From NCBI GenBank assembly GCA_030652995.1, contig JAUSAG010000035.1, forward strand, positions 1-64,000: a DNA stretch of 64,000 bases, given 5' to 3'. Below the pieces are notes generated by a model. That model was not told the DNA's origin. It saw only the letters and a program-made list of their open reading frames with translations, and made no database searches. This document shows, one piece after another, positions 13,623 through 22,874 of the stretch (the first letter of the stretch is position 1; the number at the start of each line of letters is the position of its first letter). Source of the stretch: Methylotenera sp. (GTDB lineage: Bacteria; Pseudomonadota; Gammaproteobacteria; Burkholderiales; Methylophilaceae). The position numbers and the translations under genes are program-made.

Positions 13623-13651
13623 TTGACATTTTAAATGAGAATGATTATCAT
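13623..13651 (+). promoter_or_regulatory. Sigma-70 promoter overlapped by a Fur-box-like operator
   Basis: TTGACA at 13623-13628 and TATCAT at 13646-13651 are spaced by 17 bases. A 7-1-7 palindrome, TGAGAAT-G-ATTATCA (13636-13650), differs from the Fur core TGATAAT-n-ATTATCA at one base and covers the -10 element. This is the classic layout for iron repression of the genes that follow. Confidence 0.8.
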
Positions 13652-13680
13652 TTGATTAAATTAATGGATCGGAGGACGGC

Positions 13681-13887
13681 ATGAGTAAGCAGTTAATTAT
13701 TAGCCAAGCAAAACTGACAGGAGATGAAGATTGCAAGGTGCTTTATAACAAAGCAAAAGACATTGTTGAGCTTGAAATTGGAGGCACTTCATTGCGGCTA
13801 GAAGTGCGTAACTTTTTTATGATGAATGAAATGATGCGTAAAGCAGTGGCAAGGTTGGTGATGCAAACTGAATTACATCAAGTGTAG
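13681..13887 (+). CDS. Small Fur-controlled protein, family not recognised (paralogue 1)
   Basis: A 68-residue soluble protein preceded by a strong GGAGGA ribosome site, first gene after the Fur-box promoter. Its core (VLYNKAKDIVELEIGGTSLRL) aligns without gaps with the 90-residue protein at 15266 and the 78-residue protein at 22404: an aromatic residue, seven residues, then EL-x-[IL]-x3-SL-x-[LI]. A helical C-terminal part rich in Met and Phe follows. I do not recognise the family. Position and regulation suggest a role in iron starvation; nothing in the sequence shows a catalytic or metal site. Confidence 0.75.
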   Translation: MSKQLIISQAKLTGDEDCKVLYNKAKDIVELEIGGTSLRLEVRNFFMMNEMMRKAVARLVMQTELHQV

Positions 13888-13907
13888 TAATACTGTGAAT
13901 AAATCAA

Positions 13908-14219
13908 ATGAGTACAGACATGCAAAAACAAGTATCAGCATCAAAAGCACCAAGCGAACAATTTGACCCTGAGTTACCAACCTCAAGAGAGTTAATGGTA
14001 GCAATCTGTTGCGTTGCGACGCAGTATGCGCTTAAGCCATCTCATGAGTTGGCTGTGTTGGCGAGTGAGCTGGCGCATAAGTTAAGAGCGCCTGAGTACG
14101 CAGAAACAAAGCTGATTGAAGATATTGCAGAGCGCTTGGTCAAGCAATGGGAAGCAATCGTCAGTGAGTATGGCGCAGAGGACAATTGGTTGTTGGCAAC
14201 ACATAACACATTGCAATAA
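13908..14219 (+). CDS. Uncharacterised 103-residue protein in the iron island
   Basis: A mainly helical, soluble protein with a polar N-terminal 25 residues and a helical core (SRELMVAICCVATQYALKPS, then two amphipathic helices) ending in EDNWLLATHNTLQ. No signal, membrane segment or known motif is visible. The gene starts 20 bases after the small protein gene and ends 31 bases before the second rpsD, so the three are probably one iron-repressed transcript. The ribosome site is weak; ATG at 13920 is an alternative start. Confidence 0.7.
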   Translation: MSTDMQKQVSASKAPSEQFDPELPTSRELMVAICCVATQYALKPSHELAVLASELAHKLRAPEYAETKLIEDIAERLVKQWEAIVSEYGAEDNWLLATHNTLQ

Positions 14220-14250
14220 GTGATAAATATTAAATAGATAAGGAAACAAG

Positions 14251-14868
14251 ATGTCTCGATTTATTGGCCCACGATTAAAAGTAATGCGTGCATTAGGAGT
14301 AGATTTACCTGGGTTGTCACGTAAAACAATTGAAGCGCGCCCAACGCCGCCAGGTCAGCATGGTAATAAAGCATCGCGTAAGCGTCGCTCTGATTTTGGT
14401 GTGAAATTGCAGGAAAAACAAAAAATTCGTTTCAACTACGGGCTAACAGAGACACAGATGCGTAGATTGATACTGGATGCGCGTAAGGGTAAAGAGCCAA
14501 CAGGTGAAAGATTGTTGCAGTTACTCGAACGTAGAATGGATAACGTGGTTTTCCGTGCTGGGTTTGCACCTACGGTAATTGCTGCAAGGCAGTTAGTGAG
14601 CCATGGGCACCTTATGCTAAACGGCAAGCCAGCGAACATCCCGTCGATTAGATTGAATGTTGGTGATGAAATCACTGTTAAGGCCAAAAGTAAGCATATT
14701 CCAATGGTGGTGGAAACTGTTAAGCAGCCGTCTTTAGAGCGACCAGAGTGGCTAAGATGGGATACGAGCACACAAGTAGTCAAGGTATCACACTTGCCAG
14801 CGGTGAGCGATGTGCCCTTCCCTGTGGATGTGCAATTGGTGGTTGAATATTATGCTAACCGTGTATAG
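14251..14868 (+). CDS. rpsD: Second, cysteine-free ribosomal protein S4 of cyanobacterial character
   Basis: S4 nucleates assembly of the 30S body by binding 16S rRNA. This 205-residue copy has the S4 N-domain and the S4 RNA-binding domain (APTVIAARQLVSHGHLMLNG). The N-terminus MSRFIGPRLKVMRALGVDLP and the PGLSRK..PPGQHG..KKRS-like pattern resemble cyanobacterial and plastid S4 rather than the betaproteobacterial form, which has FLKSA..LDSKCK at this place. It has no cysteine at all. It lies far from any ribosomal-protein operon and behind a Fur-type promoter, so it is most likely a paralogue used under iron limitation; the housekeeping rpsD is expected next to rpsK/rpoA elsewhere. Origin by transfer is inferred. 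Confidence 0.9.
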   Translation: MSRFIGPRLKVMRALGVDLPGLSRKTIEARPTPPGQHGNKASRKRRSDFGVKLQEKQKIRFNYGLTETQMRRLILDARKGKEPTGERLLQLLERRMDNVVFRAGFAPTVIAARQLVSHGHLMLNGKPANIPSIRLNVGDEITVKAKSKHIPMVVETVKQPSLERPEWLRWDTSTQVVKVSHLPAVSDVPFPVDVQLVVEYYANRV

Positions 14869-15036: not shown

Positions 15037-15258
15037 ATGAAAATTATTACTAATTTAACCTCTAAAGAACATATGAGTTTTGATATAGCAATTGTGACAG
15101 ATAGTACGCAAACGCAAGATAAAATTAAGATTTCTAGAATTAAAAGATTAAATAGTGACAAACTATTTACGAATGTAAAAGAGGTGATGATTGATCACGA
15201 GGATGAAACGTATTTTTTACGGATTACTAAACAAAACAAGTTGATACTGACTAAATAG
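15037..15258 (+). CDS. HemP/HmuP-like small protein (long form)
   Basis: A 73-residue protein whose C-terminal half (DKLFTNVKEVMIDHEDETYF, then LRITKQNKLILTK) matches the HemP signature: LF, a short strand, H-x(3)-Y-x-LR-x-T and the terminal KLILTK. HemP/HmuP proteins sit in heme-uptake loci and act as activators of heme receptor genes in some rhizobia and Burkholderia. The first 38 residues are an extra extension not found in the copy at 15691. The next small gene starts 8 bases later. The HemP call is good; its action on this island is inference. Confidence 0.8.
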   Translation: MKIITNLTSKEHMSFDIAIVTDSTQTQDKIKISRIKRLNSDKLFTNVKEVMIDHEDETYFLRITKQNKLILTK

Positions 15259-15265
15259 GTGTGAA

Positions 15266-15538
15266 ATGAAAAATAATAAAGCACAGGATAACGTCACAAA
15301 TAATCAAGCTTCATGCCTCCGCATTTTATTATCTAAGAATGAGAGTGGCCAGATTATATTTTGTGAAAATTGTAAAGTGGCAGAGTTGGAGCTAGGAGCA
15401 ATTAGCTTGCGAATAGATGCTGGTACGTTAAATACCTTAAGGGAGTTGTTGGCAGATGCTAGCACTAGATTGACCCTATATCAGCAAGAAAAAGCAATTC
15501 ATGCGCAGCAGTCTGTCATGAATTGTAGCGTACATTAG
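15266..15538 (+). CDS. Small protein, family not recognised (paralogue 2)
   Basis: A 90-residue soluble protein. Its core (IIFCENCKVAELELGAISLR) aligns without gaps with the proteins at 13681 and 22404. This copy has a longer polar N-terminus and a CxxC (FCENC) absent from the others, which could bind metal. It is 8 bases behind the first hemP-like gene. No function is assigned. Confidence 0.75.
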   Translation: MKNNKAQDNVTNNQASCLRILLSKNESGQIIFCENCKVAELELGAISLRIDAGTLNTLRELLADASTRLTLYQQEKAIHAQQSVMNCSVH

Positions 15539-15592: not shown

Positions 15593-15622
15593 TTGACAAA
15601 ACTAAATGATAACTATTATCAT
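15593..15622 (+). promoter_or_regulatory. Second promoter with Fur-box-like operator, upstream of hemP
   Basis: TTGACA at 15593-15598 is followed 17-18 bases later by TTATCA/TATCAT. The 7-1-7 palindrome TGATAAC-T-ATTATCA (15607-15621) has one mismatch to the Fur core, and more ATTATCATTATCATTA repeats follow directly, so several Fur dimers could bind. It should drive hemP-tonB-exbB-exbD and what follows. Confidence 0.82.
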
Positions 15623-15690
15623 TATCATTATAATTTCCTATTGATCATTGTAGTAAGTGGAAATTACCAACTTAAACATTAGTCTGAAGA

Positions 15691-15912: not shown

Positions 15913-16758
15913 GTGTCAAATTCAGCACTTGTAGTGAATGCTCACTTCTTGATGGAGCCTGTTGCGAAAATGACAGCAGCTGCTAGTGAGTCTAATGTCA
16001 AATATCTGCCGATTAGCGCACGTATCGATGCGATGCGGGTAAATAAAAAAACAATCTCTTACAAAATGTTGGTTGTCGTGATGCTAATACATATGCTTGC
16101 TTTGGTAGGTGTGTTGAGTGTACAGCCAGAAACCGTTGAGCTTAATCACCCGGAAACCCCCATGATGGTTAGCTTGGTGAGCCAGGTTGCCGATGTGCCA
16201 CAAGAGTTGCCTAAGCCACCTGTAGAGCAAGTGCAGCCAGTTAACAAGCCGCCTGTTTTAAAACCAGTAGTGCAAAAACAAAAGGTCATAGAGAAGAAGC
16301 TGGTTGTCAATGAAGAGGCGGTAAGAAAAGTTGAGCAAGTAGAACCTGCAGTAGTCGAAGAACGTAAAGAAGCTGTGGTTGCAGAAAGCACCCCTGCTGA
16401 GCCACAGCAGTCAGCAAAAGTTGCGGAAGTCTCGGATAAAGTAGCCAATAAGCAGGTGGCGACTGAACCAGTCATCGAACCACCAAGTTTTGGGGCTGCT
16501 TATTTAAATAATCCAGCACCAGCTTACCCGATGCTTGCAAGAAAAATGGGTGAACAAGGTAAGGTGCTACTTAAAGTTTTAGTGTCGCAAGATGGTAAAG
16601 CTGAAGTTGTCAAAGTAGATACAAGCAGTGGCCATCAAAAATTAGACCAAGCAGCCATAGAGGCAGTTAAAAGATGGAGTTTTGTACCAGCAAAACGTAG
16701 TAATCAGCCAATTAGCGCTTATGTGCTGGTGCCAGTAAATTTCACACTAAATGGATAA
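15913..16758 (+). CDS. tonB: TonB, energy transducer for outer-membrane receptors
   Basis: Spans the periplasm to pass proton-motive energy from ExbBD to TonB-dependent receptors. The 281 residues show a 50-residue cytoplasmic lead, a single membrane anchor near 52-72 (MLVVVMLIHMLALVGVLSV), a long Pro/Val/Glu/Lys-rich periplasmic stretch with EP/KP repeats, and the TonB C-terminal domain (PAPAYPMLARKMGEQGKVLL to the end). The GTG start is supported by a GGAGGAGG site 6 bases upstream. The cytoplasmic lead is longer than usual, so a later start is possible. Confidence 0.93.
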   Translation: MSNSALVVNAHFLMEPVAKMTAAASESNVKYLPISARIDAMRVNKKTISYKMLVVVMLIHMLALVGVLSVQPETVELNHPETPMMVSLVSQVADVPQELPKPPVEQVQPVNKPPVLKPVVQKQKVIEKKLVVNEEAVRKVEQVEPAVVEERKEAVVAESTPAEPQQSAKVAEVSDKVANKQVATEPVIEPPSFGAAYLNNPAPAYPMLARKMGEQGKVLLKVLVSQDGKAEVVKVDTSSGHQKLDQAAIEAVKRWSFVPAKRSNQPISAYVLVPVNFTLNG

Positions 16759-16842: not shown

Positions 16843-17592
16843 ATGATGCAAAACGGATACGAGTTCAATAGTTGGGAGTTTATCACGGCAGGCGGACCAG
16901 TCTCTATGTTGGTTGCCTTGATATTGTTAACAATGTCTGTGGCAAGTTGGTATTTGATTGTGACCAAAAGTGTAACTGCATGGCGTACGCGCAATGCTTA
17001 CCAATCTTTCTTGCAAGTGTTTTGGCAAGCACCGAGTTTGGCTATAGCAGTAAAGCAAAGTCAGCAATATGCTAATACAGGTTTATCAAGATTAGCAGAA
17101 AAAGCGATTTTAGCTGCAGAGCATCATAAGATGTGTGCAGTAAAAGGCGCTGATATCGTTGCGCAAGATGAGTTTGTGGCGCGTGCCATGAACCGTAGCA
17201 TTGCAGAAGAAAATGCAACTATGGAAGGCGGACTTACTTTGCTGGCTTCTGTAGGAAGCGTGTCGCCGTTTGTTGGCTTATTTGGCACGGTGTGGGGTAT
17301 TTATCATGCGCTTGCTAGTATTAGCTTAAGTGGTCAGGCTACTTTAGATAAAGTGGCAGGGCCAGTAGGTGAAGCCTTGATTATGACCGCGTTAGGTTTA
17401 GCAGTGGCTATTCCAGCCGTGCTGGCATATAACGCAATTGTGCGCAGTAATCGCGCTTTAACGGTTGAGCTTGAAAGATTTGGCTACGAACTGCATACCT
17501 TAATCACCACAGGCGCTGTCATGGGTGCTAAACGCACAAGCAAGCAGGATGTTGCTGAACCAGCGATACATGTTGCAGGTGTCGTAGCATGA
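16843..17592 (+). CDS. exbB: ExbB, MotA/TolQ/ExbB proton channel family
   Basis: Proton-channel subunit that powers TonB. The 249-residue protein has three membrane segments: near 20-42, and the pair in LLASVGSVSPFVGLFGTVWG (near 135-155) and the ALIMTALGLAVAIPAVLAYN block (near 180-205), which is the family signature. A GCGAGGAAA site precedes the ATG. It overlaps exbD by four bases (ATGA), indicating translational coupling. Confidence 0.94.
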   Translation: MMQNGYEFNSWEFITAGGPVSMLVALILLTMSVASWYLIVTKSVTAWRTRNAYQSFLQVFWQAPSLAIAVKQSQQYANTGLSRLAEKAILAAEHHKMCAVKGADIVAQDEFVARAMNRSIAEENATMEGGLTLLASVGSVSPFVGLFGTVWGIYHALASISLSGQATLDKVAGPVGEALIMTALGLAVAIPAVLAYNAIVRSNRALTVELERFGYELHTLITTGAVMGAKRTSKQDVAEPAIHVAGVVA

Positions 17593-18008
17593 TAGGGTCC
17601 GGAAGTAATGTCGGCGGTGCACCACATTCGGCACCAATGTCTGAGATTAACACTACACCGTTAGTGGATGTGATGTTGGTGTTATTGGTGATTTTTATCA
17701 TTACCGCACCATTGCTGACGCATGCTGTAAAAATTGATTTACCACAAACAAATAGCCAGCCTATCCATGAAAAGCCAGAAGTGATTTCTGTATCTATTGA
17801 TGCGTCAGGCAAAATGTACTGGAATGACATGCCGTTAGTACAAGGTGAGCTGAAGCTAAAGTTAAAAGAAATTGCACAGAAGAAGCCACAGCCAGAGTTG
17901 AATATACGTGCTGATAAAGAAACCCGCTATCAAGTATTAGCTGAAGTGATGGCTGATGCACAAAATTCAGGTATCAGTAAAATGGGTTTTGTGAGTGAAA
18001 GTAAGTAA
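17589..18008 (+). CDS. exbD: ExbD, biopolymer transport protein
   Basis: Partner of ExbB. The 139 residues have a short cytoplasmic start (SEINTTPLVDVMLVLLVIFI) with the conserved membrane Asp in PLVDVMLVLL needed for proton flow, one membrane helix, and a periplasmic domain (LNIRADKETRYQVLAEVM). It follows exbB with an ATGA overlap and ends 6 bases before the PepSY chimera. Confidence 0.94.
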   Translation: MIGSGSNVGGAPHSAPMSEINTTPLVDVMLVLLVIFIITAPLLTHAVKIDLPQTNSQPIHEKPEVISVSIDASGKMYWNDMPLVQGELKLKLKEIAQKKPQPELNIRADKETRYQVLAEVMADAQNSGISKMGFVSESK

Positions 18009-18014
18009 TAAACG

Positions 18015-18644
18015 ATGAAGGTTCAATCGCTTAAAACTTGGGCTTGGGTGCACAAGTGGTCCAGCTTGATATGCACAGTGTTTATGCTATTGCTGTGTTT
18101 GACTGGCTTGCCCTTAATCTTTCATCATGAAATTAGCCATTTAATTGGCAATGAAGTCGAAGCGCCAGAGTTGCCAGAAAATACCAAATTGGCAAGTATG
18201 GACGATGTCTTGGAGAGTGCAAAATCACGTTATCCAGAGCGTGTAGTACAGTTTTTCTTTCGAGAGGTAGATGAGGATAAATCTTGGACGGTTAGCTTGG
18301 GTGATACGGCTACATCACAAGAAGGGAATAAGTTTGTTAAGGTAGACGCACGTACCGCTGAAGTATTACAAGAACCTAAATTCAACGAAGGTTTTATGCA
18401 TATCATGTTGAAGATGCACGAGGATTTATTCGCTGGATTGCCGGGGATGCTGTTTTTGGGCTTCATGGGTGTACTTCTGGTTGTTGCGATAATTACTGGT
18501 GCAGTGTTGTATGCACCATTTATGCGAAAGCTTGTGAATAATCTATTTGATAAATACGCTTTATTACAAAGCTTTGCATCAACAAATACGGCTTATGTAA
18601 ATGCGCCACGCACAGTAGGTTTCAATGTCAGATTAGATTTTTAA
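18015..18644 (+). pseudogene. Chimeric scar gene: truncated PepSY membrane protein joined to the end of a TonB-dependent receptor
   Basis: The 209-residue frame starts as a PepSY-associated membrane protein: helix near 17-38 (LICTVFMLLLCLTGLPLIFH), PepSY-like periplasmic part, and a second helix near 152-172 (FMGVLLVVAIITGAVLYAPF). Right after MRKL, where such proteins go on to further helices, the sequence becomes VNNLFDKYALLQSF and ends YVNAPRTVGFNVRLDF. That is the typical last strand pair of an outer-membrane receptor with terminal Phe. The likely history is a deletion that fused a PepSY gene to the 3' end of a lost receptor gene. It stays open and follows exbD by 6 bases, so it is probably still translated. 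Confidence 0.75.
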
Positions 18645-18713: not shown

Positions 18714-20801
18714 ATGCACTATTCATTAAAAAATAAATCATTAGCAATGGCTATTTTGCTTGCTTTACCAGCTATTAGTTCGTATGCGGAAGAGGTCGAG
18801 TCCACGTTGCCAGAAGTGGCAGTGAGCGCGAAAAAAGATGAAAAGGAAGATAAATTTATCACGCAAGACAGGGCTACCAACGTTGGTAAAAGCCCCGTCA
18901 GCATTCAAGATTCTCCACAGTCAATCACTGTGGTGGATGTTGAGCAAGCACGTGAAATGGGTGCGTTGAACATTCAGGATGCGCTCACTTATAGCTCTGG
19001 CGTTTATTCTGGCAACTTTGGCTTTGACACCCGCATAGACTCTACAAGAATCCGTGGATTGTCCCCTTCATTGTTTTTGAACGGTCTGCGAACTCTCTAT
19101 GGGTTTTATAACAATACGCGTGATGATATTTATACGCTAGAGAGCATTGAAGTACTTAAAGGGCCATCCTCCTCACTTTTTGGGCAATCTGATTTAGGTG
19201 GTATTGTGAATCTGGTTTCTAAGATGCCTAAAGAGAAAGCGTCAAAAGAAATTAATGTGCAATATGGTATGTATGATCGTAAGCAAATCGGATTTGATTT
19301 CACGGGCCCAATCACTGACGATGGAACCTTGCTATATCGAGTGGTAGCGATGAAGCGTGATAGTGGCACTCAGGTGGATTATGTCAAAGATGATGCGTTG
19401 ATATTCATGCCTTCAATCACATGGCGCCCTAGTGATAAAACTAGCATCACTTTGCAATATTTACATCAAGACGTCGATAGTACTGTATCCGCACAGTTTC
19501 TGCCTTCTAGAGGTACGATACAATCGGCGCCGTTAGGCAAAATCTCAAGTAGCACCTTTGTGGGTGAGCCTGGCTGGGATAGATATGATATGAAACGAGA
19601 TGAACTTTCTTTGTTTGTGGATCAAAAATTTACTGACAATCTAAAGTTGGTAGCAAGCCTCAGAAAAACCAACTCAAGTTCTGAGACAAGAGAGCATTGG
19701 ACACGCGTTGGCGCTATTCCTGATAACGCAGGCAATATGCAAAGAACGATTCATACCGCTGATAGAAATACCCACGTTTTTTCTGCGGATACGCGCTTGC
19801 AAGCAGATTTAAACTTAGGTCCAACAAAACATATCGCATCATTTGGTGTGGATTACCAAGATGCGCTTTGGACCGAAAGTAACTTCGCCTCTACAACCTC
19901 TGCATTTGGGATTAATGTCTATAACCAAGTTTACGGAAATGTCGATTACAGTAAGTTAGTGGGTGCAGAAAGAAATAACAACAAAATTGTTCAGGCAGGC
20001 TTTTATTTGTCAGATCACATGGAGTGGGGGCCAGTGGTGATCTCAGCGGCACTTCGCCGTGATCATGCAACTAATACTTTATTGCAATTTAATAAGTCAA
20101 TTCCAGATACTGATGCGAGAAACTCGGCAACGACTGGCCGTGTTGGTTTAATGTATAGATTCAACAATGGCCTCTCTCCCTTCATCAACTATTCTGAAGC
20201 ATTTGTACCTAACTTGGGCGGCGATGGCGCTGGTGGTATTCTAAAACCTACAGAAGGCGAACAACGCGAGGCTGGTTTAAAGTTTCTATCTAATGATGGC
20301 AATTCATCGGCAAATTTTGCTACCTTTGAGATTGAGCAAATCAATCGGATTCAGCAAGGTGCTATTCCAGGTGGCGTAGAGCAAGTGGGTGCTGTGACCA
20401 AAGGCTGGGAGCTTGAAGCCAAACATAGAATTGGCAAACTTGAATTGATGGGTAATTACACCCGTATGAATGCTTTCAACGATACGACAAAAATAAGATT
20501 GCCTTATGTGGCAGAAAAACTAGGCTCGGCTTGGGCGCAATACCGCATCAATGAACATTGGCGTGCAGGCGTTGGTACCCGTTATATTGGCGATACGGTA
20601 GGTGGGGGCGGTTTGCCAACCGTAGATTCTGTCACCTTGTTTGATGCTATGGTTGGCATCAACTACGGTGCATGGGATGTCCGTGCCACGATAAGAAATA
20701 TTGCCGATAAAGAGTTTATTTCTTGGTGCCGTGGAAATAATCAAGACTGTGGCTTTGGCGAACGCCAAAACGCGGTACTTTCCGCCAACTATAACTTTTA
20801 A
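18714..20801 (+). CDS. TonB-dependent receptor, ferrisiderophore type
   Basis: A 695-residue outer-membrane receptor for an iron chelate. It has a signal peptide (LAMAILLALPAISSYA), a TonB box-like stretch near LPEVAVSA, a plug domain (SVQDSPQSITVV-like segment near 65, then VEVLKGPSSSLFGQSDLGGIVN near 145), and a beta-barrel with repeated siderophore-receptor blocks such as LKPTEGEQREAGLKF. The C-terminus is ANYNF, a proper barrel end. The FRAP/NPNL signature of heme receptors is not evident, which favours siderophore over heme. It follows an AAGGAG site and overlaps the next PepSY gene by one base. Confidence 0.9.
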   Translation: MHYSLKNKSLAMAILLALPAISSYAEEVESTLPEVAVSAKKDEKEDKFITQDRATNVGKSPVSIQDSPQSITVVDVEQAREMGALNIQDALTYSSGVYSGNFGFDTRIDSTRIRGLSPSLFLNGLRTLYGFYNNTRDDIYTLESIEVLKGPSSSLFGQSDLGGIVNLVSKMPKEKASKEINVQYGMYDRKQIGFDFTGPITDDGTLLYRVVAMKRDSGTQVDYVKDDALIFMPSITWRPSDKTSITLQYLHQDVDSTVSAQFLPSRGTIQSAPLGKISSSTFVGEPGWDRYDMKRDELSLFVDQKFTDNLKLVASLRKTNSSSETREHWTRVGAIPDNAGNMQRTIHTADRNTHVFSADTRLQADLNLGPTKHIASFGVDYQDALWTESNFASTTSAFGINVYNQVYGNVDYSKLVGAERNNNKIVQAGFYLSDHMEWGPVVISAALRRDHATNTLLQFNKSIPDTDARNSATTGRVGLMYRFNNGLSPFINYSEAFVPNLGGDGAGGILKPTEGEQREAGLKFLSNDGNSSANFATFEIEQINRIQQGAIPGGVEQVGAVTKGWELEAKHRIGKLELMGNYTRMNAFNDTTKIRLPYVAEKLGSAWAQYRINEHWRAGVGTRYIGDTVGGGGLPTVDSVTLFDAMVGINYGAWDVRATIRNIADKEFISWCRGNNQDCGFGERQNAVLSANYNF

Positions 20802-22069
20802 TGCGTACTTTTTTCACCATCGCCCATCGTTGGCTGGGCCTTATTACCGCGATCTTTCTGTTTATCACTGGGCTGACAGGCGCGGTCATCTCTTGGGATC
20901 ACGAGTTAGATGATTGGCTGAATGATCATTTGATGGTGGTCGCGCCTACATCAAATGACGCATTGCCAATATTTCAATTGGTGCAACAGGTTGAAATGCG
21001 TTATCCTCAACTTAAGGTGGTGTCCGTGCCCTTAAATATGGGGGCGGGTAAAAGTGTAATGTTGGGAGTTGCGCCCATCCTTAATCCTGCTACTCAGCAG
21101 TCTTATGATTTGGGGTTTAACGAGATATTTCTTAATCCGTATACCGGGCATGAGCTGGGCAAGCGTGATAGAGGTGCGGTATGGCCGCTCAGCAAAGAAA
21201 ATTTTGTATCGTTTTTATATCGGCTGCATTTTAGTTTGCACATTCCAGAATTTGCTGGGATTGACCGCTGGGGCATTTGGCTGTTAGGCGTCATCGCCAT
21301 TGTTTGGTTAGTGGATACTTTTATTGGATTTTACCTGACCTTGCCGAACAAGCGAGCCCCTATAGCCTTTCGCCAACATCATGTAAAATACCATGAAAAA
21401 AGTTTTAAGCAACGCTGGGCGCAGGCATGGAAAATCCGTTTGCCAAGCACCACTTATAAGTTGAACTTTGATATTCACCGCGCTTTTGGCTTATGGACGT
21501 GGCTGTTGTTGTTTATTGTCGCCTTTACGGCGTTTTCGTTAAATTTGCGGCGCGAGGTGTTTTTGCCTCTGCTTAGTCAAATCACCACGACAACACCCAC
21601 CCCATTTGATTTAAGAAAGCCACTTCCAAAACATGCCGTGGATTTAAGCCATATTGAATTTGAACGTGTGCTTGCATTGGCCAAGCAACAAGCCGTAAAA
21701 AAACAATGGAAAGAGCCTGCTGGTTCGATTTTTTTAAGTCCACGATTTCAACTCTACGCCGTCAGTTTTTTCACGCCAGAATCCGACCATGGCGTGGCAG
21801 GCGCAGGCAATAAACGGCTTTACTATGACCAGAAAACGCTGGCGTATCTTGGCGAGCGTTTGCCTTGGTCTGGCACGGTTGGGGATATTTTTGTGCAAGC
21901 ACAGTTTCCTCTGCATTCTGGCCGAATTTTAGGCTTGCCAGGTAGGGTGCTGATTTCGCTGATGGGCTTGGTCGTTGCCGTATTGTCTGTGACAGGCGTT
22001 TATATTTGGTATCGCAAGCGGTATGCTAGAGTGGTTGGTAAGCGGAGATTAGGCAGACTGAACGCATAA
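20801..22069 (+). CDS. PepSY-associated membrane protein (full-length)
   Basis: A 422-residue inner-membrane protein of the PepSY_TM family, often found beside siderophore receptors and proposed to reduce or process incoming ferric complexes. Helices near 8-30 (RWLGLITAIFLFITGLTGAV), 146-170, 218-240 and 375-400, with PepSY-like periplasmic segments in between. Conserved His residues (HRWLGL, DHELDDW, HFSLHIPEF, HRAFGLWTW) could bind heme, as proposed for related reductases. The start codon shares a base with the receptor stop (TAATG). This complete copy contrasts with the truncated one at 18015. Confidence 0.85.
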   Translation: MRTFFTIAHRWLGLITAIFLFITGLTGAVISWDHELDDWLNDHLMVVAPTSNDALPIFQLVQQVEMRYPQLKVVSVPLNMGAGKSVMLGVAPILNPATQQSYDLGFNEIFLNPYTGHELGKRDRGAVWPLSKENFVSFLYRLHFSLHIPEFAGIDRWGIWLLGVIAIVWLVDTFIGFYLTLPNKRAPIAFRQHHVKYHEKSFKQRWAQAWKIRLPSTTYKLNFDIHRAFGLWTWLLLFIVAFTAFSLNLRREVFLPLLSQITTTTPTPFDLRKPLPKHAVDLSHIEFERVLALAKQQAVKKQWKEPAGSIFLSPRFQLYAVSFFTPESDHGVAGAGNKRLYYDQKTLAYLGERLPWSGTVGDIFVQAQFPLHSGRILGLPGRVLISLMGLVVAVLSVTGVYIWYRKRYARVVGKRRLGRLNA

Positions 22070-22404: not shown

Positions 22405-22479
22405 ACATTAACCTTCTTAGATTGCTTGTTTGTGCTCGTATTCGTTAATTAAAAGTGTCCAATGTATGCACATTCTGCG

Positions 22480-22507
22480 AGAAACTGAGCATATTAGCGC
22501 AGTTTCT
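22480..22507. repeat. Short inverted repeat upstream of the minus-strand small gene
   Basis: AGAAACTG at 22480-22487 is inverted as CAGTTTCT at 22500-22507 in an otherwise empty 200-base intergenic region. It could be an operator or chance. Confidence 0.3.
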
Positions 22508-22600
22508 GCATACTCTGGTGCCATGAGTGTTTCACTCAAGGGCTAGCTTGGCTAAGTCTTGTGATGGCCTATTCATGTAAATCGTAGTTACATATAACAA

Positions 22601-22874
22601 TGAAACCATCACGGATGCGGCATCAGGGTATTCAGTGTCATACATACCATTATCTGAACTTGCATGGGCAGCATCTGACGCACACCCTAAATCTAAATGG
22701 GTGCCAGAAAATACGCTAAAACAAACTTTAGTAGAAGAAGGGTACACCATTAAAAAATTCAAAGTGGATGGTAATTGCTACGAAATCTACGGACGGAATA
22801 AAGAGGGTAAAAAGGTAGAGATTTATTTTGATACAAAGACCCTTGCGATTGTTAAGGCGGAAGTAGAGCGTTAA
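22601..22874 (+). pseudogene. PepSY-like periplasmic protein gene with degraded signal peptide
   Basis: The mature part (HPKSKWVPENTLKQTL.., FKVDGNCYEIYGRNKEGKKV) is a typical small PepSY-like domain of the kind encoded before cytochrome b561 genes. Upstream, an ATGAAA at 22601 is one base out of frame with it. Read in the domain's frame, the stretch TITDAASGYSVSYIP..LAWA looks like a Sec signal in which hydrophobic residues have been replaced by D, S, G, Y and E. Reading on from a GTG at 22635 gives a product without a signal. The next gene is broken too, so I call this a decaying gene; translation from the GTG cannot be excluded. Confidence 0.6.

Follow-up and report, generated by a model that had tools for sequence, protein, structure and literature searches.

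The window analysed here, a stretch of 64,000 nucleotides from a Methylotenera genome (Methylophilaceae, 2.66 Mb), encodes a second ribosomal protein S4. This spare gene, rpsD2 (14251 to 14868, forward strand), probably takes part in a Fur-controlled, iron-sparing swap of S4. A predicted Fur-type promoter drives precisely the S4 that lacks a metal site. When iron is ample, iron-loaded Fur would sit on positions 13633 to 13653 and silence rpsD2 together with two small upstream genes, small68 and small103. Ribosomes would then carry the S4 encoded in the alpha operon, with its four cysteines holding a [4Fe-4S] cluster. When iron is low, Fur would depart, transcription of the operon would start together with that of hemP, tonB and receptor genes, and newly made 30S subunits would receive the cysteine-free S4 in place of the iron-sulfur (Fe-S) one. 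Assembly of the 30S subunit would become independent of cluster supply, and four iron atoms would be saved per ribosome. We infer Fur binding, the cluster in a mesophilic S4, the exchange in ribosomes and the saving of iron from sequence comparisons.

A profile search with PF00163 found two S4 genes in the genome, the alpha-operon copy and rpsD2. The rpsD2 product is an intact protein of 205 residues with no cysteine, as the sequence-only reading of this DNA had described it. Both S4 Pfam domains (PF00163 and PF01479) score above cut-off, and so do the bacterial S4 equivalogs NF003717 (236 bits, cut-off 116) and TIGR01017 (221 bits, cut-off 177). The protein is 98% identical to the spare S4 of Methylotenera mobilis 13. 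The gene fits the definition of the C-(IV) type: the four cysteines and a seven-residue indel are missing, the PGxHG motif is kept, and the locus lies outside the alpha operon. It is under strong purifying selection, with ratios of nonsynonymous to synonymous substitution rates (dN/dS) of 0.013-0.068 in 10 of 11 pairs and saturated dS in the 11th, which rules out a decaying copy. An AlphaFold model of the spare S4 has a mean predicted local distance difference test score (pLDDT) of 83. Its first four ten-residue blocks average 49-60, so that the model is uninformative on the N-terminus, the part of interest.

The main S4 lies in an alpha operon of the order S13-S11-S4-rpoA (contig C23) and passes the curated bacterial S4 models. 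It aligns with the rpsD2 product at 39% identity and has near its start a CxxC...CxxxxC site that is missing from the spare protein. The (CXXC)-(CXXXXC) signature is described as defining C+, metal-binding uS4, and the site in Thermus thermophilus is reported to hold an Fe4S4 cluster (sections of PMC10450194). The main S4 shares this signature with the Thermus protein, a likeness known here at the level of sequence. The Thermus uS4 cluster reportedly comes from Polikanov 2015. All 59 C+ S4s examined have the signature, comprising 45/45 from Methylophilaceae with two S4 genes, 8/8 from other Betaproteobacteria and 6/6 from Nannocystis; the alpha-operon setting of the C+ gene was viewed in two genomes, G000 and G051. 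Cysteine is absent from residues 1-45 of the spare S4 in 56/56 Methylophilaceae and 10/10 other Betaproteobacteria, and from the whole protein in 54/56 and 9/10, respectively. For myxobacterial or deltaproteobacterial copies the corresponding counts are 9/10 and 1/10. The four-cysteine, Fe-S-type site in the main copy supplies the reason for an iron-controlled swap. The sequence-only reading had not looked at the main copy and so lacked this reason for iron control of rpsD2.

The predicted promoter is of the sigma-70 type, TTGACA-17-TATCAT (13623 to 13651, forward strand), with 11 of 12 matches, a -35 at 13623-13628 and a -10 at 13646-13651. The Fur box, AAATGAGAATGATTATCATTT (13633 to 13653, forward strand), lies over the spacer and the -10 and matches TGATAATnATTATCA at 13 of 14 positions. 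What had been called a near-perfect Fur operator over the -10 is therefore upheld in its position and its core; the match to the Escherichia coli 19-mer is only 14/19. A perfect AATGATAATCATT core occurs at one place in the genome, which is this box. There are 11 other strand-hits, each with one mismatch, and one of them is the same box on the other strand. The reversed control pattern gave 6 genomic hits at up to one mismatch. Read by eye, one of the other matches (contig C14) precedes a putative TonB receptor, and the remaining ones lie in or near genes without an evident iron link.

The scanned region held three promoter-like sites against a mean of 5.2 in shuffles, that is, no excess, and the weight of the promoter therefore rests on conservation across loci. 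In 41 of 47 orthologous loci, a -35 with at least 5/6 matches precedes the -10 position by exactly 17 nucleotides; shuffled flanks show this in 9 of 940 cases. These loci represent 44 genomes with two S4 genes and three incomplete assemblies; G051 and eight genomes with a deleted alpha-operon S4, discussed below, were left out. Alignment on the box reveals a conserved block, GTTGACAT..TAAATGAGAATCATTATCATTT, and the box itself carries 1.64 bits of information per column, compared with 0.80 for the left flank, where the -35 lies, and 0.36 for the right flank. The genome encodes a true Fur (equivalog score 190 bits, cut-off 146), whose gene adjoins that of BamE. A second, weaker Fur-family protein is encoded beside a ZIP zinc transporter, passes no NCBIfam cut-off and may be Zur. 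With a Fur protein present and a box over the promoter, rpsD2 is predicted to belong to the Fur regulon and its promoter to be bound.

Comparison within the family supports this prediction. Among 187 Methylophilaceae genomes scanned, a spare S4 (counted at E 1e-50 or better) is present in 56, of which 45 encode a C+ S4 as well. A Fur box of at least 11/14 lies within 750 nucleotides upstream in 44 of these 45 two-S4 genomes, and one of at least 12/14 in 37. Shuffled upstream sequences reach 11/14 in 18 of 280 cases and 12/14 in 5 of 280. The sequence-only reading had proposed such a scan of relatives for a spare rpsD with a Fur box. Its result, along with the sole perfect core in the genome and the conserved promoter spacing, supports an operator of the iron type.

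No C+ S4 was found in 11 of the genomes with a spare S4. Three of them (G122, G131 and G073) were rejected as spare-only genomes; their assemblies are 79-94% complete and also lack S11, the Fur box is kept, and they were counted apart. In the other eight (G050, G053-G058 and G107) the gene order S13-S11-rpoA is present, and no S4 was found within it. At 300-750 nucleotides upstream of rpsD2 their best match is 9/14, in contrast to at least 11 in 44/45 two-S4 genomes. The small103 gene was not found in any of the eight, and rpsD2 still lies beside tonB/exbB in seven. The S4 tree included seven of these genomes and places them in a single clade nested among box-bearing genomes. No S4 other than the spare one was found in the eight, which implies that it can do the work of a ribosomal protein in them. 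The coupled absence of the iron-type promoter and the alpha-operon S4 is one event, yet a telling one. One member of the group, G055, has two spare-type S4 genes 143 kb apart (G055:C1:915328 and 1058360), with no C+ S4 found. The pair resembles the large repeat that Chen, Roberts and Luthey-Schulten (2009) describe for Methylobacillus flagellatus KT (in part of PMC3087516).

As the sequence-only reading had anticipated, the spare S4s did not arise by a recent duplication of the main rpsD. Besides the 39% identity, an approximately unbiased (AU) test rejects a single betaproteobacterial clade of spare and main copies (p = 3.6e-7). The tree unites the spare S4s with the myxobacterial C- copies and the spinach plastid S4 in one clade (support 99/98), separate from the C+ copies and from the other C- S4s in the set. 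The earlier description of the protein as cyanobacterial- or plastid-like holds for the plastid part, given a plastid S4 in the same clade on a long end branch (1.7). The tree set had no true cyanobacterial S4, and when 43 PDB sequences are ranked by plain similarity to the spare S4 the plastid protein comes only 24th, which speaks against a cyanobacterial link. Chen et al. (2009) are cited for a grouping of C-(IV) S4 with Cyanobacteria at high support and for a proposed transfer from Cyanobacteria (in part of PMC3087516). In view of the long plastid branch, the cyanobacterial link leans on that study.

Spare S4s of this kind are also present outside the family. A search of 399 genomes drawn evenly from the order identified copies at 54-64% identity in 10 genomes other than Methylophilaceae, as well as weaker matches at 39-45%. 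A C+ S4 accompanies the spare in 8 of the 10; completeness is 64% and 78% for the two assemblies without one. Longer stretches were examined for seven of these loci. In G191 and G309 a Fur-like box clearly above shuffles lies 113-114 nucleotides upstream of the spare S4. The spare S4 neighbours hemP and a TonB receptor in G295, an ExbB-type protein, an extracytoplasmic function (ECF) sigma factor and FecR in G457, and a PepSY_TM protein and a TonB receptor in G413. No clear iron gene was found beside it in the parts read of G191, G309, G485 and G518.

Both S4s occur in all six Nannocystis genomes examined. There the spare S4 is divergent from an operon encoding Peripla_BP_2, FecCD and an ATP-binding cassette (ABC) ATPase (read in L023 and partly in L027), and the ATPase comes nearest to a heme transporter model at just under cut-off (255 versus 261 bits). 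Fur-like sites of 11-12/14 lie upstream of the spare S4 in 6/6 genomes, and shuffles reach at most 9. Four myxobacterial or deltaproteobacterial genomes in which one S4 was found have no Fur-like site (8-9/14). The Nannocystis intergenic region (L023:3815-4000) contains two Fur-like sites, at about -126 and -41, in the six genomes. Within the same phylum, 83 of 188 genomes have a match to the spare S4 with an E no higher than 1e-45, sole and spare copies being unsorted.

Genome comparison supports the sequence-only reading on the operator of the iron type, the iron neighbourhood, the plastid-like kinship of the spare S4 and its standing as more than an ordinary duplicate. Several observations weigh against an iron-controlled swap. 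No rpsD2 is seen in 131 of the 187 Methylophilaceae genomes, many of them incomplete. Windows elsewhere in the same loci reach 11/14 in 96 of 458 cases; shuffles were taken as the fairer control because other Fur-like boxes occur in the neighbourhood. The eight genomes without an alpha-operon S4 represent one clade and one change, and hence a single event and not eight tests. Two of them have an 11/14 match at -53/-55, which does not resemble the footprint and is no better than chance would give. In G051 both S4s are present and the nearby box is missing; its rpsD2 follows a putative TonB receptor gene (by eye) and a PepSY_TM gene, and the weak Fur-like site upstream of the receptor-like gene (11/14) is matched by 4 of 20 shuffles. 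Elsewhere in the order, the Fur-like sites of G295 and G518 are marginal and more than 1 kb from the spare S4, and those of G413, G457 and G485 are absent or at shuffle level. Lastly, the four-cysteine S4 site is treated as a zinc site by Chen et al. (2009; in part of PMC3087516).

This last point leads to a zinc logic, with zinc in the alpha-operon S4 and a spare S4 that answers zinc starvation, as is the case for bL31 and other zinc-ribbon ribosomal proteins. The description of four-cysteine S4 as zinc-binding (part of PMC3087516) and the possible Zur in the genome, which scores below NCBIfam cut-offs, are in keeping with it. We consider it quite unlikely, given that the box is of the Fur type, that the neighbours are hemP, tonB and receptor genes, and that the Nannocystis neighbours are ABC genes of the heme/iron type. 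Moreover, Chen et al. (2009) looked beside S4 paralogues for Zur sites without success (in part of PMC3087516), and no separate Zur-motif scan was made here. Control by iron could also serve another end than sparing. The spare S4 may alter decoding, assembly or stress tolerance, or replace an oxidation-prone cluster protein. S4 lies where mRNA enters the ribosome and influences accuracy (part of PMC10931766), and an S4 mutation is reported to alter the peroxide sensitivity of E. coli (part of PMC8141631). Nothing direct speaks against such a role, and on translational accuracy the present results point neither way. Sparing is, however, the simpler account of an S4 that lacks just the metal site and stands behind an iron operator, which makes this reading unlikely as a replacement for sparing. 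The two are compatible and can both be true.

The remaining alternatives concern what the box or the protein does. Two small open reading frames (ORFs) lie between the box and rpsD2, and the box might serve these, with rpsD2 a bystander that has its own constitutive promoter. The gap of 31 nucleotides between small103 and rpsD2 and the loss of the box where the alpha-operon S4 is gone argue otherwise. So do the Fur-like boxes directly before S4 itself, at 113-114 nucleotides in G191 and G309 and at about 41 in Nannocystis, and the bystander explanation is very unlikely. The spare S4 could instead act outside the ribosome, repressing the alpha operon or antiterminating rRNA and so lowering ribosome output in iron starvation, as E. 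coli uS4 is described as both alpha-operon repressor and antitermination factor (part of PMC10931766). We consider this very unlikely too, since a protein that is the sole S4 found in eight genomes is presumably ribosome-competent, and its whole-gene dN/dS is low.

The interval between the promoter and rpsD2 holds two small genes on the forward strand that the sequence-only reading had passed over. They encode proteins of 68 residues (small68, 13681 to 13887) and 103 residues (small103, 13908 to 14219), neither with a Pfam or NCBIfam match. The genes small68, small103 and rpsD2 would form one operon with rpsD2 in third place, read as a single transcript. In the family-less small103 product, Cys35 is invariant in 8 aligned members. 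The small103 gene occurs in 48 of the 187 Methylophilaceae genomes. Of these, 47 are exactly the genomes with a Fur-boxed spare S4, and the 48th (G071) is 88% complete. The small103 product is a candidate for a partner in the swap and may be a chaperone or an assembly factor. A broken second copy, matched in two pieces, lies in the window at 22423-22672 on the reverse strand, and second copies occur elsewhere in many genomes of genus g15.

ORFs of 80-95 codons also stand beside the spare S4 of other Betaproteobacteria (L246:3332-3619, L247:3293-3559, L249:3040-3312, L250:3576-3824 and L248:3963-4247). A single family uniting small103 with the small proteins beside these S4s is not supported: the best match among 749 ORFs had an E of 0.11, although in G413 this best-matching ORF is the one immediately before S4.

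Downstream of rpsD2 the iron island of the sequence-only reading is confirmed, with all features on the forward strand. It includes hemP (15037 to 15258; PF10636, 63 bits, cut-off 25) and a gene for a 90-residue, DUF6686-like protein (15266 to 15538; 22.5 bits, just under the cut-off of 23.9). By tblastn cross-match in some relatives, the latter looks loosely related to the 68-residue ORF. A second Fur-like box upstream of tonB (15608 to 15626) matches the E. coli consensus at 16/19, the best in the window. It is followed by tonB (15913 to 16758; PF03544), exbB (16843 to 17592; PF01618) and exbD (17589 to 18008; PF02472). Two PepSY_TM proteins (18015 to 18644 and 20801 to 22069) flank a TonB-dependent siderophore receptor (18714 to 20801).

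Pairs of C+ and C-(IV) S4 were described by Chen et al. (2009), including those of Nitrosomonas europaea and myxobacteria, with Methylobacillus flagellatus as a case of C+ S4 loss (in part of PMC3087516). The gene rpsD2 is of the type they describe, a C- S4 outside the alpha operon with a C+ S4 inside it. What goes beyond their account is control of the Fur type, the setting in an iron island and an Fe-S logic; the word iron does not occur in their main text. No report of an iron response or of Fur control of an S4 paralogue was found among the matches listed from the open-licence literature. In the parts available, the main text on Methylophilaceae transcriptomes (PMC3728764) has no occurrence of the word iron, that on the Fur of N. 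europaea (PMC3050691) has no word beginning with ribosom, and that on Fe-S regulation in Myxococcus (PMC9973013) has nothing on S4.

The nearest known systems are the Zur-controlled, zinc-free ribosomal paralogues, namely bL31B/YkgM, YtiA and the mycobacterial alternative ribosomal proteins (AltRPs; parts of PMC10931766, PMC8866557 and PMC3087516). By analogy, the S4 pair would share with them a ribosomal protein that binds metal and a paralogue that does not, the latter repressed by a metal-loaded member of the Fur family and made in starvation. It differs in that the metal would be iron and not zinc, the operator is of the Fur and not the Zur type, an Fe-S cluster would take the place of a zinc ribbon, and the protein is S4, an early assembly protein. 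With its Fur-type operator the system would work like a Zur swap, but it is not filed as a member of that class. In the exchange of flavodoxin for ferredoxin, an iron-free protein replaces an iron protein in iron starvation. The S4 swap is unlike it in that the replaced part would belong to the ribosome.

Metal-responsive remodelling of the ribosome is known for zinc, and an iron version would mean that a costly Fe-S ribosomal protein is worth replacing. The proposal is testable in culturable Methylotenera, Methylophilus and Nannocystis; Methylovorus-type relatives, in which only a cluster-free S4 was found, provide natural strains. If true, it would answer the question left from 2009 of what controls the C-(IV) S4 paralogues, and it would bear on whether mesophilic S4 holds zinc or an Fe-S cluster. 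A broader proposal is tentative, with slightly less than an even chance: that ribosome composition is under direct Fur and iron control, that this coupling arose more than once (in Betaproteobacteria and separately in Nannocystis), and that small103 is a dedicated Methylophilaceae partner. Cells contain tens of thousands of ribosomes, and four iron atoms in each would amount to a sizeable part of cell iron. On this broader view S4 would be to iron what the zinc-ribbon ribosomal proteins are to zinc, and ribosomes would be a large consumer of iron that the cell can adjust.
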